A DNA stretch of 64,000 nucleotides from an alpha proteobacterium HIMB114 (GTDB taxonomy: Bacteria > Pseudomonadota > Alphaproteobacteria > Pelagibacterales > Pelagibacteraceae). Of the stretch, positions 38,442 to 43,613 are shown in pieces. A program made the position numbers and the translations under genes. Location: positions 992,001 to 1,056,000 of the forward strand of contig ADAC02000001.1 in NCBI GenBank assembly GCA_000163555.2, written 5' to 3'. Position 1 is the stretch's first letter, and every line of letters begins with the position of its first letter. Below the pieces are notes generated by a model. It had not been told where the DNA came from. It saw only the letters and a program-made list of their open reading frames with translations, and made no database searches.

Positions 38442-39809
38442 AAAAAGAGCTGCAATAAAAGACCAGAATAATAAATAATTTGAAATTATTGCTGGGAACA
38501 TAGATTTATCAAACAAAGTTCCAACTAATAAACTTTTAGAAAAATCTGGACTTGGAAATAACAATAAACCTAAAATTATTCCAAAAATAATCGCTTTAAA
38601 TACATCATAATGTTTAATTTTTTTATTATAAAAACCATAAAAAATTGGAATTGCAGCAGCACAACATAATAAATCGGCTAGTAAAAATAGATACAAAACA
38701 CTCATTCCTTTTGATGAAATATAAAAAGCAGAGCCTGCTAAAAGGATACCGCCAGTAATATAAAAATTATTAATATTTTTCTTTTTAATAGATTTATTTG
38801 AATGAATAACAAAAAGGCTTGAGACACTTGCAATCAGAGTATCCAAGCTACTTAAAACCAACGTTAATGATAGAATTAAGATAACTAAATTTAATAACAA
38901 ATACTCTTTGTTAACTAATAAAGAGAAAATAATAATGCTTGGGTCTTTTATCTTTCCATTTAAAGAAGCATAAATTCCAACTAAACCTAAAAGCAAAATA
39001 GTTATTAAAACAATACAAAATGCTGCTGTAAAACCTTTTTTTAACACCTCAATATTCTTAGATGCATAAACTCTTTGCCAAATCCCTTGGTCAAATAAGT
39101 TAGTTGCAAAAACAGCAATAAAAAAAGTAAGACCAGCAGTAAATCCTCCAAAACCAATACTTAAATTTGAAGATTTACTCATAATCAAACTTGGAGAAAG
39201 AAAATCTATTTTTTGGTTTAAAATTATAAAAATAATTAATAAGAAAATTATGATAATCCAGAACTGAAGTTTATCTGTAATGATAGATATTTTTAGACCA
39301 CCTTTTAACGAATAAATTAATGTAGAGATAATAGTCAAAGCTGCAGTTAACCATAAAGGAGTACCTAAAATTAAATTAACAACTTTTGAAATTGCTGTAA
39401 CTTCAGCACAAAAATAAACATAAAGATAAAGTATAGTTAAAATTAAAATTAATTTTAAAACTTTTTGATCGTACCTTTTTTCAATAACTTCAGTTAAACT
39501 TTTGGCGTTTGGCAAAATTTTTCTAATCTTTTCACCAATTTTGGAAAAGTATAAAAATACAAAACTTTGACCTGCTGCATAACCAATTACAGCCCCTACT
39601 CCGCCCCAGGTTGATGCTTCTGCAGGACCAATCAAAATCCATATTCCAAAACAAGATGCAGTTAAACTAAAAGTTAATCCAAAGACATTAACGTTTCGGT
39701 CACTGACTAAAAAAGCAGACTGTGAGATTTTTCCTCTAGATACATAATAACCAAAGGACATAAATCCTAAGCAAACTACAAAGAGCGAAATAATTAAAAT
39801 CGTGTTCAT
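38406..39809 (-). CDS. thiV: SSS-family transporter under TPP riboswitch control (putative thiamin-precursor importer ThiV)
   Basis: A 467-residue sodium:solute symporter family protein with about 13 membrane segments; the conserved region FGIWILIGPAEASTWGGVGAVIGYAAG lies near residue 55 (partly quoted). A TPP riboswitch directly precedes it, so it is almost certainly involved in uptake of thiamin or a precursor. In SAR11 an SSS transporter downstream of a TPP riboswitch has been named ThiV and proposed to import the pyrimidine precursor HMP, which these organisms need. The name here rests on riboswitch, family and organism type. Confidence 0.85.
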   Translation of the reverse strand: MNTILIISLFVVCLGFMSFGYYVSRGKISQSAFLVSDRNVNVFGLTFSLTASCFGIWILIGPAEASTWGGVGAVIGYAAGQSFVFLYFSKIGEKIRKILPNAKSLTEVIEKRYDQKVLKLILILTILYLYVYFCAEVTAISKVVNLILGTPLWLTAALTIISTLIYSLKGGLKISIITDKLQFWIIIIFLLIIFIILNQKIDFLSPSLIMSKSSNLSIGFGGFTAGLTFFIAVFATNLFDQGIWQRVYASKNIEVLKKGFTAAFCIVLITILLLGLVGIYASLNGKIKDPSIIIFSLLVNKEYLLLNLVILILSLTLVLSSLDTLIASVSSLFVIHSNKSIKKKNINNFYITGGILLAGSAFYISSKGMSVLYLFLLADLLCCAAAIPIFYGFYNKKIKHYDVFKAIIFGIILGLLLFPSPDFSKSLLVGTLFDKSMFPAIISNYLLFWSFIAALFSPIIFIKKFNR

Positions 39810-39815
39810 ATGTTT

Positions 39816-39885
39816 TCTTCCTCCGCCAGCATTATCTGGATCAGGTTTAAAGGGTTCATCTCAGGCTAAGCCGCCCCTGAAAACT
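39816..39885 (-). promoter_or_regulatory. TPP riboswitch (THI element)
   Basis: On the minus strand the conserved THI-box parts are present in order: GGGGCGGCTTAGC, then CTGAGATGA (39864-39856), ACCCTTTAAACCTG and CTGATCCAGATAATGC, ending GGCGGAGGAAG. The final GGAGGA also serves as the ribosome-binding site about 9 bases before the transporter ATG at 39809. This suggests control by occlusion of the ribosome-binding site, with TPP binding turning expression off. No terminator hairpin is seen between aptamer and gene. Confidence 0.95.
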
Positions 39886-39938
39886 AATAGATAAGTACAG
39901 TATTTTGCAAAAAAGTCTATCGGTGATATCTTTTAAAA

Positions 39939-40322
39939 ATGAAAAATAAAATAATTATACTATTATTATTTTTTTCTATTCAATTTACCTCTAACAGCTT
40001 AGCTGATCATTGTGGTCACGACATGGATAGGACTTGGTTTTATACATCGAATTTTTCATCAAACTATCAAGTTAGTAAATCAAGAGCCAAATATCAAAAA
40101 TGGACCTTTAAAAATAAAACTGACAAGCAAATTACAATTTACAGCGTAGGTCTTTGGTCAAAAGGCAAAAAAGTCATGAAAGAACAAAAGGTAAAGAAAT
40201 ATCTAAAACCTTTTGGTGTAGTGTCAGTGAAAATGTATGTTGGTGACCTAAATCTTGATGTTGCTGGAAGTGGTTTTTCTAGATGTGAATACGGCAAACC
40301 AGTTGTTAAAAAAAACATATAA
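39939..40322 (+). CDS. Secreted protein of unknown function (possibly the N-terminal part of the next gene)
   Basis: A 127-residue protein with a clear signal peptide (IIILLLFFSIQFTSNSLA, cleavage before DHCGHDM). The mature part has a His/Cys/Asp cluster HCGHDMD at the start, one later Cys (FSRCEYG) and a beta-rich middle (KWTFKNKTDKQITIYSVGLW). No family was recognised. It ends in an 8-adenine tract; reading with one fewer A (or two more) would continue into a basic, proline/tyrosine-rich linker and the DUF805 domain downstream. It is divergent from the thiV-type gene and shares its upstream region. Confidence 0.68.
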   Translation: MKNKIIILLLFFSIQFTSNSLADHCGHDMDRTWFYTSNFSSNYQVSKSRAKYQKWTFKNKTDKQITIYSVGLWSKGKKVMKEQKVKKYLKPFGVVSVKMYVGDLNLDVAGSGFSRCEYGKPVVKKNI

Positions 40323-40860
40323 TCAAAAACCAAGTACATACTCAAAACCAAAAACTTACTATAAGCCAAAAACTAAAAAGAGAAGAAATGTCGATAATTT
40401 TACATTATTCAATTTATTTCTACTAGCTGTAGCAGGAATTTTAATCTTAGTCTTTGTTGCCGCTACTAAAAAAAATGAATACAAAAAATATGTAAAAAAA
40501 TTTCCAAAAGTTTTTGATTTTGCAGACCAAACTATTATTTGTTTTAAAAAATATAGTACCTTCAAAGGACGAGCACAAAGAAAAGAATATTGGTATTTCT
40601 ACTTATTTACTTTTATTGTTTCGGCATTAACCTATTTTATTGATGTAAGTATTTTTAGAAAAGACCCAGATGGAATACTTTTTATTAATGCATTTTTCTC
40701 CATGTTAACTTTTTTGCCTTCAATAGCTGCTGGATGTAGAAGATTACATGATGTTAATAAATCTGGGTGGTGGCAGTTAATTTCTTTAACAGTTATAGGA
40801 ATAATTCCGTTAATCATTTGGCTCGTATCAAAATCAGTTAAAGAAAACAATAAATTTTAA
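40255..40860 (+). CDS. DUF805 membrane protein (N-terminus uncertain; possible frameshifted extension of the upstream gene)
   Basis: The frame is open from 40255 to 40860. The C-terminal half is a DUF805 domain: FKGRAQRKEYWYFYLF near residue 102, followed by membrane helices, the AAGCRRLHDVNKSGWWQL motif near 160 and a last helix. Before it are a linker rich in Lys, Tyr and Pro and a membrane helix (FNLFLLAVAGILILVFVA). Its only starts (TTG 40255, ATG 40258) lie inside the previous gene, without a convincing ribosome-binding site, and the first 17 residues look like out-of-frame sequence. The real product may be a fusion made across the A8 tract at 40308-40315. Confidence 0.72.
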   Translation: MMLLEVVFLDVNTANQLLKKTYNQKPSTYSKPKTYYKPKTKKRRNVDNFTLFNLFLLAVAGILILVFVAATKKNEYKKYVKKFPKVFDFADQTIICFKKYSTFKGRAQRKEYWYFYLFTFIVSALTYFIDVSIFRKDPDGILFINAFFSMLTFLPSIAAGCRRLHDVNKSGWWQLISLTVIGIIPLIIWLVSKSVKENNKF

Positions 40861-40861
40861 A

Positions 40862-40969
40862 CTATTTTTTTTTACGTTTAAAACTGCCTTTTCCTTTTTT
40901 TGGCTTAACAATTCTTTTTTTATATTTTGGTGATCTCAAATCCTCTGCGATAGGATTTCTTTTTTTCAT
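40862..40969 (-). CDS. ArfA-like alternative ribosome-rescue mini-protein
   Basis: A 35-residue basic protein not found by length-limited ORF calling. The central NPIAEDLRSPKYKKRIV and the C-terminal KPKKGKGSFKRKKK resemble the core of E. coli ArfA, whose region [26 protein letters not shown] recruits RF2 and places its KKGKGS tail in the empty mRNA channel. Its ATG overlaps the TGA of the photolyase-related gene (ATGA), indicating translational coupling. It stops one base from the convergent DUF805 gene. ArfA is a backup to tmRNA; whether the short form is functional is not known. A short ribosome-associated basic peptide is the alternative. Confidence 0.62.
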   Translation of the reverse strand: MKKRNPIAEDLRSPKYKKRIVKPKKGKGSFKRKKK

Positions 40970-42450
40970 AACGTATTTGATTTTATAAATGTATTTGCGG
41001 CTGAAAAAATTTCTTTTTTTCGATCGGGTTTCATCTTTTCTAAAATTCTGACCATCATTGATAAACGTGGATTTTTAAGAAAAAATTTCTTATTTTTGTC
41101 TATAAATCTCCAATACAAACCATCCATTATGTTACACCAAGGACCTTTTTTAAAGTCCATCATCTTAAGGAAATAAGCTGATCCACAAATATATGGCTTT
41201 GTTGCAAAGGTACCTCCATCACTAAATAAACCCATGCCATAAACATTTGGTGACATTACCCACTCCGAAGAGTCCATAAACATTTCCATAAACCATTTAT
41301 AAACTTGCCTCGGTTCAATTTCACAAAGGTTCATGATGTTTGATAAAATCATTAATCTTTCAATATGATGAGACCATGCATAATCTTTAGCATTTTTAAT
41401 AGCATGATCTAATGGGTCTAGGCCTGTGGTACCTTCATACCAAGAATTTTTCATCTTATTTTTATGATTAAAAAAATTTGATTTTTGCATTTTATCATCA
41501 AAGTTTTGATAAATACCTCGCATAAACTCTCTCCATCCTATGACCTGTCTTAAATAACCTTCGTAAGAATTTATACTCACTTTTTTTTCAAACTTAGTTA
41601 ATTCATCTAAAATTTCTTGAGGTGTAATAGAGCCATTATTAATAAATGGACTCAGCGCGCTATGAAACAAAATATTATCTCTTTGGTCAACAGCATCTTC
41701 ATAATCACCAAATAATTTGAGTTTATCTTTTAAAAAATTATCTAAAACTAATTTTGCATCTTTTCGAGTTGTTCCAATCCAAAATTGATTAGTATCACCA
41801 GGATGCTTTGGAAATTTTTCATTTATAATTTTTTTTAATTTTTTTGTGTGCTCTGTTTCTTTAAAAATTGGTTGCTTAGGCAGTTTAATATCTTTTGGTA
41901 ATTTTTTTCTATTCTCGCTATCAAAACTCCATTTACCACCCTTTGGACTTCCATCTTTATTCATTAAAATATTAAATTTTGTTCTCTGAATTTTATAAAA
42001 ATTAGCCATGAAAGGTTTTTTAGATTTTCCAAGGTAACTTATAAAATCGTCTCTACTACTTAAAAACATTGGTGTTTTGAGTATCTTATAATCTACTTTT
42101 TCCTTTTTAAGGTATGAAACAATTTTTTTTTCAAAAGGCTTATCTTCAATTTCAAAAAAATTAACATTTTTAATTTTCTTATTTTTTATTACGTTTGCTA
42201 ATTTTTTTACATAATCGTCTTTAAATTCTTTATCTTCAATTTTATGATAAATAACTTTGTAACCCACCTGTTCTAACTCATCTTTAAATGATCTCATTGA
42301 GGACAGAAAAAAAGTAATTTTTTGTTTATGATGTTTTTCATATGTACAAAGCTCAAAGTCTTCTGCCAAGAAAAATAAAGATGATTTGTAATCTTTGAAA
42401 TGCTTAGGATGGAAAAGCTGATTACCTAAAACTATAAACAGATCATTCAT
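40966..42450 (-). CDS. Cryptochrome/photolyase-related protein (FeS-BCP/PhrB family), iron-sulfur cysteines apparently lost
   Basis: A 494-residue deoxyribodipyrimidine photolyase-related protein, the family that includes the Agrobacterium (6-4) photolyase PhrB. The N-terminal Rossmann-like domain starts LFIVLGNQLF; the FAD-binding domain has VIGWREFMRGIYQ near residue 305, AYAHHIQRL-like YAWSHHIERLM near 365, and EWVMSPNVYGMGLFSDGG near 395. Family members normally have a YCxxC and CP motif for a 4Fe-4S cluster after the KM(S)DY segment. Here that region is shortened to KMMDFKKGPWCNIMDGLYWRF-like sequence and lacks the pair. Part of a coupled three-gene operon. Confidence 0.86.
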   Translation of the reverse strand: MNDLFIVLGNQLFHPKHFKDYKSSLFFLAEDFELCTYEKHHKQKITFFLSSMRSFKDELEQVGYKVIYHKIEDKEFKDDYVKKLANVIKNKKIKNVNFFEIEDKPFEKKIVSYLKKEKVDYKILKTPMFLSSRDDFISYLGKSKKPFMANFYKIQRTKFNILMNKDGSPKGGKWSFDSENRKKLPKDIKLPKQPIFKETEHTKKLKKIINEKFPKHPGDTNQFWIGTTRKDAKLVLDNFLKDKLKLFGDYEDAVDQRDNILFHSALSPFINNGSITPQEILDELTKFEKKVSINSYEGYLRQVIGWREFMRGIYQNFDDKMQKSNFFNHKNKMKNSWYEGTTGLDPLDHAIKNAKDYAWSHHIERLMILSNIMNLCEIEPRQVYKWFMEMFMDSSEWVMSPNVYGMGLFSDGGTFATKPYICGSAYFLKMMDFKKGPWCNIMDGLYWRFIDKNKKFFLKNPRLSMMVRILEKMKPDRKKEIFSAANTFIKSNTL

Positions 42451-43100
42451 GAAGAAATGAAATATTTTCCATCTTCTACTGAAATGAATTTTTTATCACT
42501 AAGTTTGCTTTGTAATTTTTGTCTTAATCGATAAAGATGAGTTTCATAAGTATGTGAATCAATCTCTTCTCCATGAGACCAAATATCTTTCATAATTTCT
42601 TGCTTGGTTGCCCCCTCTTTTTTCCCAGATAAATATAAAATAATATCCAATTCTCTTTCAGTTAATTTTGCAGATTTTTTTCCATATGAAATAGTTCTCT
42701 CATTTTTATCTAAATTATATTTTCCAATTTCTACCTTGGACTGGAATAAAAATTTAAATTTTAAAATCGCAAGTTTAATAATTTTTTCTAAATCCTGATA
42801 ATTAACAGGAAGCTCTAAAAAACTACTCAGGACATTATCTTTTTTAATAGTTTTAAAATTTTCGCTTTTTTTAGAGAAAAAAATTTTTGGATATTTAATT
42901 TTTTTTAATTCTTTTAAATCTAGTTTTTCTAAATCATCAACAAAAAACAAAAAAACATAAACATCTATCAATGGAGTTTTTAATATCTCTTTAACTTCCT
43001 TGAAACTCTTGAGATTCTGTAAGTTATACTCAGTTTTCTGCTCCTGCATACACTCAAAAAAAACAGGTGACCCTACGGTAATGATTGAGTAATTTTGCAT
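42447..43100 (-). CDS. Winged-helix (OmpR-type) regulator with a degenerate receiver-like domain
   Basis: A 217-residue protein from the ATG at 43100. The C-terminal 95 residues form an OmpR/PhoB-type DNA-binding domain: AKLTERELDIILYLSGKKEGATKQEIMKDIW and SHTYETHLYRLRQKL, ending VEDGKYFI. The N-terminal 110 residues have the size and hydrophobic pattern of a receiver domain (SIITVGSPVFFECM...), but the acidic pocket and phosphorylatable Asp are not evident. The closest analogues are alphaproteobacterial orphan regulators of this layout. It overlaps the photolyase-related gene by 4 bases (ATGA), so it may regulate it. Longer in-frame starts would run into the divergent gene. Confidence 0.85.
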   Translation of the reverse strand: MQNYSIITVGSPVFFECMQEQKTEYNLQNLKSFKEVKEILKTPLIDVYVFLFFVDDLEKLDLKELKKIKYPKIFFSKKSENFKTIKKDNVLSSFLELPVNYQDLEKIIKLAILKFKFLFQSKVEIGKYNLDKNERTISYGKKSAKLTERELDIILYLSGKKEGATKQEIMKDIWSHGEEIDSHTYETHLYRLRQKLQSKLSDKKFISVEDGKYFISS

Positions 43101-43121
43101 AACGATAAAATATAAATTTAT

Positions 43122-43613
43122 ATGATTATAGTAAATAAAAACGGCACGCTTATGCACAATAAAAAGCTTTATAAATGTGCTTTAGGAAAACGCGGCATTA
43201 CAAAAAATAAAAGAGAAGGTGATAAAAAAACACCTGGAGGAGTTTTTTCTCTTGGAAAGGTATTTTATCGAAAAGACAAAATTAAAAACCTGAAAACCAA
43301 ACTAAAAAAAGTCATTATCAAAAAGAATATGGCATGGTGCGATGATTCTGAAAATAAATCTTATAACAAACTGATTTTTACAAATGATAAAAGTAAAGAA
43401 AAGCTTCATCGAAAAGATAATCTTTATAATATAATTATAGTTATTAATTATAATGTTAGACCTGTTAAAAAAAATAAAGGTAGCGCAATCTTTATTCATT
43501 TAGCTAGAAAAAATTATACAGGCACAATGGGATGTATCGGTTTAAAGAAAAAAGATTTAATTGAGATTTTAAAAACCTTAAAAAAAAGTACAAAGATTAA
43601 AATTCTTACCTAG
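43122..43613 (+). CDS. L,D-transpeptidase catalytic-domain (YkuD) protein
   Basis: A 163-residue YkuD-fold protein. Near the N-terminus KRGITKNKREGDKKTPGGVFSL has the KxEGDxxTPxG pattern of the YkuD fold. The catalytic signature FIHLARKNYTGTMGCIGLKK near residue 125 holds the H-x(n)-TxGC sequence with Cys at about 144. These enzymes make 3-3 crosslinks or attach lipoprotein to peptidoglycan. No signal peptide is apparent, as in many members of the short alphaproteobacterial subgroup. Its stop CTAG overlaps that of the convergent YggS gene. Start codon lies 21 bases from that of the divergent regulator. Confidence 0.86.
   Translation: MIIVNKNGTLMHNKKLYKCALGKRGITKNKREGDKKTPGGVFSLGKVFYRKDKIKNLKTKLKKVIIKKNMAWCDDSENKSYNKLIFTNDKSKEKLHRKDNLYNIIIVINYNVRPVKKNKGSAIFIHLARKNYTGTMGCIGLKKKDLIEILKTLKKSTKIKILT

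Follow-up and report, generated by a model that had tools for sequence, protein, structure and literature searches.

A 35-residue, hairpin-free ArfA encoded by SAR11 bacteria, with relatives in many viruses

Introduction

Does a 35-codon reading frame wedged between two genes of a SAR11 bacterium encode a genuine ArfA ribosome-rescue protein, and how could so short a version work and be regulated? SAR11 bacteria rank among the most numerous in the ocean. The frame lies in a 64,000-nt stretch (the window) from the genome of the alphaproteobacterium HIMB114 (Pelagibacteraceae), a single contig of 1,237,371 bases.

Reviews describe ArfA as limited to beta- and gammaproteobacteria (PMC8012679). 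A 2024 survey of 15,259 genomes with DNA profiles found it in none of 2,376 Alphaproteobacteria, 2,022 of which carry ArfB (PMC11633108). Taken together, reviews and survey place ArfA in gammaproteobacteria, some betaproteobacteria and a few Bacillus (PMC8012679, PMC11633108), in agreement with the original prediction of this locus, which had called the protein mainly known from the gamma and beta classes. We found no report of a chromosomal ArfA from SAR11 in the literature searched.

In E. coli, a 3' stem-loop in arfA leads to a non-stop mRNA, so that ArfA is made only when tmRNA fails (PMC3989581). Truncation at N47 is reported to leave the protein active and further shortening to inactivate it (PMC5378476), and its active form has 52-55 residues (PMC6299226). 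The KKGKGS part lies in the empty mRNA channel (PMC5378476, PMC6299226), and residues 15-31 contact RF2, with a hydrophobic patch of L19, L24 and F25 (PMC5378476).

Results

The predicted 35-codon minus-strand frame is present at exactly the position given for it (Table 1), and its product contains both elements singled out there, NPIAEDLRSPKYKKRIV and the basic tail KKGKGSFKRKKK with its KKGKGS-type motif. As claimed, the product is shorter than E. coli ArfA: 35 residues compared with 72 encoded. The placement between two genes also stands, but not as a simple intergenic location: the start codon overlaps the stop codon of the photolyase-related gene by 4 nt, an arrangement that likely couples translation of arfA to the upstream gene. 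On the other side, one nucleotide separates the stop codons of arfA and the DUF805 gene. Elsewhere in the window, a TPP riboswitch (71.1 bits, 39801-39888, minus strand) lies directly upstream of a sodium:solute symporter gene.

Table 1. Features of the arfA locus in the window
Feature	Position	Strand	Details
arfA (35-aa ArfA)	40862..40969	-	ATG at 40969, TAG stop 40862-40864, product MKKRNPIAEDLRSPKYKKRIVKPKKGKGSFKRKKK
KKGKGS codons, residues 24-29	40883..40900	-	pattern match 40880-40900
arfA residues N5-V21	40907..40957	-	phmmer alignment to E. coli ArfA 14-30 (RF2/decoding-centre region)
ATGA, arfA start over upstream stop	40966..40969	-	4-nt overlap
Deoxyribodipyrimidine photolyase-related gene (DPRP + FAD_binding_7), 494 aa, upstream of arfA	40966..42450	-	Pfam, synteny
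Winged-helix response-regulator-like gene (Trans_reg_C)	42447..43157	-	Pfam, synteny
L,D-transpeptidase (YkuD) gene, next conserved neighbour	43122..43613	+	Pfam, synteny
DUF805 membrane-protein gene, convergent with arfA	40255..40860	+	Pfam, synteny

The profile search came out as the prediction of an ArfA-like identity required. The peptide matches Pfam ArfA (PF03889) with 32.8 bits against a cut-off of 25.5 (E = 4.9e-8), this being its sole Pfam match even at E ≤ 10, and the match is recovered at 30.6 bits in a six-frame search of the genome. All six PDB matches found with phmmer are chains of E. coli ArfA; the alignments run from K12 to K44 and contain no gaps. The GGQ-bearing RF-1 domain (PF00472) expected of ArfB (YaeJ) was not found in the peptide by the Pfam search, and an NCBIfam search gave no match, which speaks neither for nor against ArfA. 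At the DNA level, a KKGKGS[FY]-type pattern occurs once in the window, where 0.01 matches are expected. By family membership, the sequence can thus be assigned securely to the genuine ArfA proteins.

A chance frame could in principle mimic such a protein: lysine makes up 15 of the 35 residues, the genome is AT-rich and many further short ORFs lie nearby. To allow for this lysine-rich composition, we built a shuffle control, scoring the peptide against a profile made from 23 gammaproteobacterial ArfA cores only. The peptide reached 31.8 bits, compared with a maximum of 8.2 among 2,000 shuffled versions of it.

The frame is also widely kept, with ArfA matches in 199 of the 247 Pelagibacteraceae genomes and in 85 of the 102 high-quality ones. 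Orthologues in related SAR11 genomes, which the original prediction had called for, sit mostly at one conserved locus, and substitutions do not ignore the KKGKGS core. Pairwise comparison of 81 SAR11 orthologues gives a pooled dN/dS of approximately 0.10, or 0.16 when the motif that served for the search is left out. Third codon positions are the most variable, and the glycine codons of the invariant KGKG use all four synonyms. The invariance of the motif is partly by construction, since the loci were fetched by the pattern PKKGKGS[FY] or as best-scoring Pfam hits; outside the motif, N5, A8, L11, K15, Y16 and R19 are invariant across the 81 species. A further 20 SAR11 copies were taken from the Pfam hits, including many with lower scores; KGKGS is intact in 19 of these, and the other reads KGKGA. 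The arfA frame is under purifying selection.

The genomic site is similarly stable. In most of the 80 named Pelagibacteraceae species compared, arfA directly follows the winged-helix regulator gene, which itself adjoins the L,D-transpeptidase gene (regulator and transpeptidase were named by Pfam, the kinase below and further neighbours by eye). The window's group has the photolyase-related gene inserted between regulator and arfA, with the start/stop overlap retained, and in most other SAR11 a PfkB-type kinase gene takes the place of the DUF805 gene as convergent neighbour. An NTGA overlap (ATGA, TTGA or GTGA) of start over stop is found at 64 of the 80 loci. The fixed site, the frame kept in so many genomes, the low dN/dS and the gap between peptide and shuffles rule out a lysine-rich chance ORF, a reading to which we attach practically no credence.

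The gene is missing from the syntenic site in at least six SAR11 genomes (among them G026), so arfA is not essential across the group. At six loci the regulator gene is not followed by arfA, while tmRNA is kept and ArfB is absent; the sequences suggest that the regulator gene without arfA in several SAR11 genomes reflects lineage-specific loss or absence.

Some small proteins are similar to the N-terminal half of SAR11 ArfA yet have no KGKGS. Two genomes of one SAR11 genus (G005 and G019) encode such proteins, e.g., MKRNPIAKALRTPKFKKKVIKDKKKYNRKKVKKYF, the one in G005 reaching the Pfam cut-off for DUF7230 (27.0 bits); from its sequence, DUF7230 could represent a relative of ArfA that carries a different tail. 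Three genomes of a sister family have a similar KGKGS-less protein, NPVAKELRTPKFR..., encoded directly after a gene whose product ends in ...DGGSVLL and weakly similar to SAR11 ArfA (E approximately 2e-4 to 4e-4). As candidate ArfAs, the proteins of both groups were rejected: against the gammaproteobacterial model they score 1.8-6.4 bits, inside the range of the shuffles.

To compare regulation, we folded the 80 nt after the core and expressed stability as z relative to shuffles. Gammaproteobacterial arfA genes have a median z of -4.4, with 83% below -2 (n = 24), whereas the median for SAR11 is +0.6, with 1% below -2 (n = 108). A hairpin inside the gene, which is typical of regulation in E. 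coli but accessory rather than family-defining, is thus lacking at almost all of the 108 SAR11 loci folded. The coding sequence instead ends a median of 5 residues after the core: SAR11 arfA is already truncated, by an ordinary stop codon. A median of 2 nt separates arfA from the convergent gene, too little for a terminator of its own. A near-palindrome noticed by eye at the end of the window's arfA (TTTTAAAC...GTTTAAAA) raised the possibility of a terminator or an RNase III site, which we dismissed because the region folds no more strongly than shuffles (z = +0.57). With a normal stop right after the core and no hairpin, production of ArfA would be independent of the state of trans-translation, and the gene is probably always on.

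The remaining rescue toolkit of the genome consists of a permuted tmRNA (238.7 bits), SmpB and two PF00472 proteins, RF1 and RF2; a third PF00472 protein was not found. Across the family, permuted tmRNA is present in 91 of 97 good genomes. ArfB was found in none of the 247 genomes, each of which has at most two PF00472 proteins, except for one with a third, partial hit; that protein was rejected as a possible ArfB because its RF domain is partial. The same PF00472 search did detect ArfB in control Alphaproteobacteria. Because ArfB is absent, ArfA looks, from the gene content, like the only protein backup to tmRNA-SmpB in SAR11.

What the peptide shares with E. coli ArfA (YhdL, PF03889) is the basic KKGKGS tail and the preceding A-site region, in a gapless alignment to residues 12-44, and the SAR11 genome supplies an RF2 with the contacted residues. 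Unlike the E. coli protein, the SAR11 peptide starts near Q10 and ends at the equivalent of K44: residues 1-9, the part of the E. coli protein in contact with h44 and S12, have no equivalent in it, the hydrophobic C-terminal tail is absent, and it comes from a gene without a hairpin in a genome without ArfB. The original description of the peptide as close to the minimal active form therefore holds roughly but not fully, for the shortest form reported active is the N47 truncation and the N-terminus is missing as well. With a C-terminus shorter than that form and N-terminal residues absent, activity is not guaranteed.

The A-site region itself is present and conserved in SAR11, but the RF2-contacting patch is only partly kept: the F25 position is an invariant Tyr, while L24 and L19 are replaced by Lys and Asp. 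These charged residues, seen in the alignments, and the missing N-terminal strand could mean that the E. coli ArfA-RF2 interface does not apply and that Francisella ArfT is the better comparison, a protein that is likewise short (40 aa), has a basic tail and is not regulated like ArfA (PMC6299226). However, ArfT has KKGGSTNKK in place of KGKGS, no aromatic residue at the F25 position and low similarity to ArfA (PMC6299226). Neither that type of tail nor the loss of the aromatic is found in the window peptide, which has the full KKGKGS and a Tyr; Y25 also occurs in some gammaproteobacterial ArfAs (two of the loci compared). Aligned to E. coli RF2, moreover, SAR11 RF2 has an intact pocket of V198, F217 and W319, the residues contacted by E. 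coli ArfA (PMC5378476), and in SAR11 RF1 the residue corresponding to 217 is not Phe. Since these may be general RF2 residues, the pocket lends weak support to a partnership with ArfA. On balance, we consider a departure from the E. coli interface quite improbable and favour an ArfA that would use RF2.

ArfA genes elsewhere in the class are rare (6 of approximately 380 class genomes outside SAR11). They share the same core, e.g., NPAARELADPKYRKRVIKAKKGKASYTRKG, but differ from SAR11 arfA in that the ORF continues for tens of codons and that three of the four loci folded have a strong tail hairpin (z below -2). In four of these genes the frame extends beyond the core into a GC-rich stem with a T-run after it, the gammaproteobacterial arrangement, which is apparently unreported for Alphaproteobacteria.

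Relatives are also common in viruses, with at least 291 viral contigs in IMG/VR encoding one. In approximately 31 of the 80 contigs inspected, arfA lies between the gp44 and gp62 clamp-loader genes, with regA next, and genes for gp45 and DNA polymerase are found near this site in these marine T4-like phages. The PHROG family phrog_20887, listed as of unknown function, matches ArfA. Named phages with a copy are HTVC027P (gp30), Roseobacter phage CRP-212 and Caulobacter phage Cr30; HTVC027P gp30 has already been named ArfA (PMC12753301). The Arf-like ORFs of CRP-212 (MRQKNPVAKILRTPRYRQRKVMPKKGKGSYKRNTKHRKETT) and Cr30 have no matching ORF in the deposited gene tables. A tblastn search of named phages with the 35-residue peptide returned nothing, probably due to low-complexity filtering, and a 66-residue viral query did find copies. 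No KGKGS ORF was seen in the regions inspected of HTVC008M, Mosig EXVC030M and HTVC010P, named relatives of arfA-bearing contigs. HTVC027P gp30 and the proteins of the marine T4-like phages resemble SAR11 ArfA in their NPVAKEVRTPKYKSQIIKPKKGRGSFKR core and in mostly having no strong hairpin (9% with z < -2), but they often carry an N-terminal extension (WDGRSRxS...) and their genes sit in phage gene blocks.

The number of viral relatives raises the alternative that SAR11 acquired arfA from phages and uses it chiefly for phage-related or other purposes. HTVC027P, with an arfA of its own, has HTCC1062 listed as host, and G026, which may be HTCC1062, is one of the genomes without arfA at the syntenic site. 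Against this, host arfA occupies a chromosomal site that is conserved across most of the species sampled and has no adjoining phage genes, and in an unrooted tree host and viral sequences tend toward separate clusters, although approximately 30 alignment columns are too few to root the origin of either. We therefore regard a phage origin as unlikely, and vertical maintenance in SAR11 as the preferred reading.

Discussion

The explanation that we consider very probable is that SAR11 bacteria maintain by vertical inheritance a genuine, core-only ArfA, which uses RF2, is free of the hairpin switch and is the sole protein backup to tmRNA-SmpB. It accounts for the observed family membership, conservation, selection and synteny, for the absence of ArfB next to tmRNA, SmpB and RF2, and for the lack of a hairpin; from these we infer expression, RF2-dependent activity and constitutive production. 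Specifically, on a ribosome that has run to the 3' end of a message lacking a stop codon, the tail KKGKGSFKRKKK would enter the vacant mRNA channel while NPIAEDLRSPKYKKRIV would sit in the decoding centre and position RF2, which would then release the peptide. The protein would be made with or without working trans-translation, probably via translational coupling to the upstream gene.

What appears new, judged from sequence comparison, is a true ArfA that is minimal, has no hairpin switch, belongs to a clade not previously associated with the family and has many viral relatives. A broader scenario is that SAR11 swapped the widespread alphaproteobacterial ArfB for a minimal, hairpin-free, always-made ArfA, and that marine alphaproteobacterial phages repeatedly took up arfA, including next to the T4-like clamp-loader genes, so that ribosomes stay free during infection, especially of hosts without arfA. 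We put this combined scenario forward tentatively, as slightly more apt to be wrong than right.

If arfA is widespread in SAR11, the published map of ArfA distribution needs correcting, and trans-translation is predicted to be dispensable in SAR11 strains that carry arfA and essential in those that do not. The presence of arfA in a phage replication gene block suggests that ribosome rescue matters while marine bacteria are infected. Finally, an ArfA of 35 residues that has no tmRNA-dependent switch would show how little protein suffices, separating the rescue activity from its regulation.
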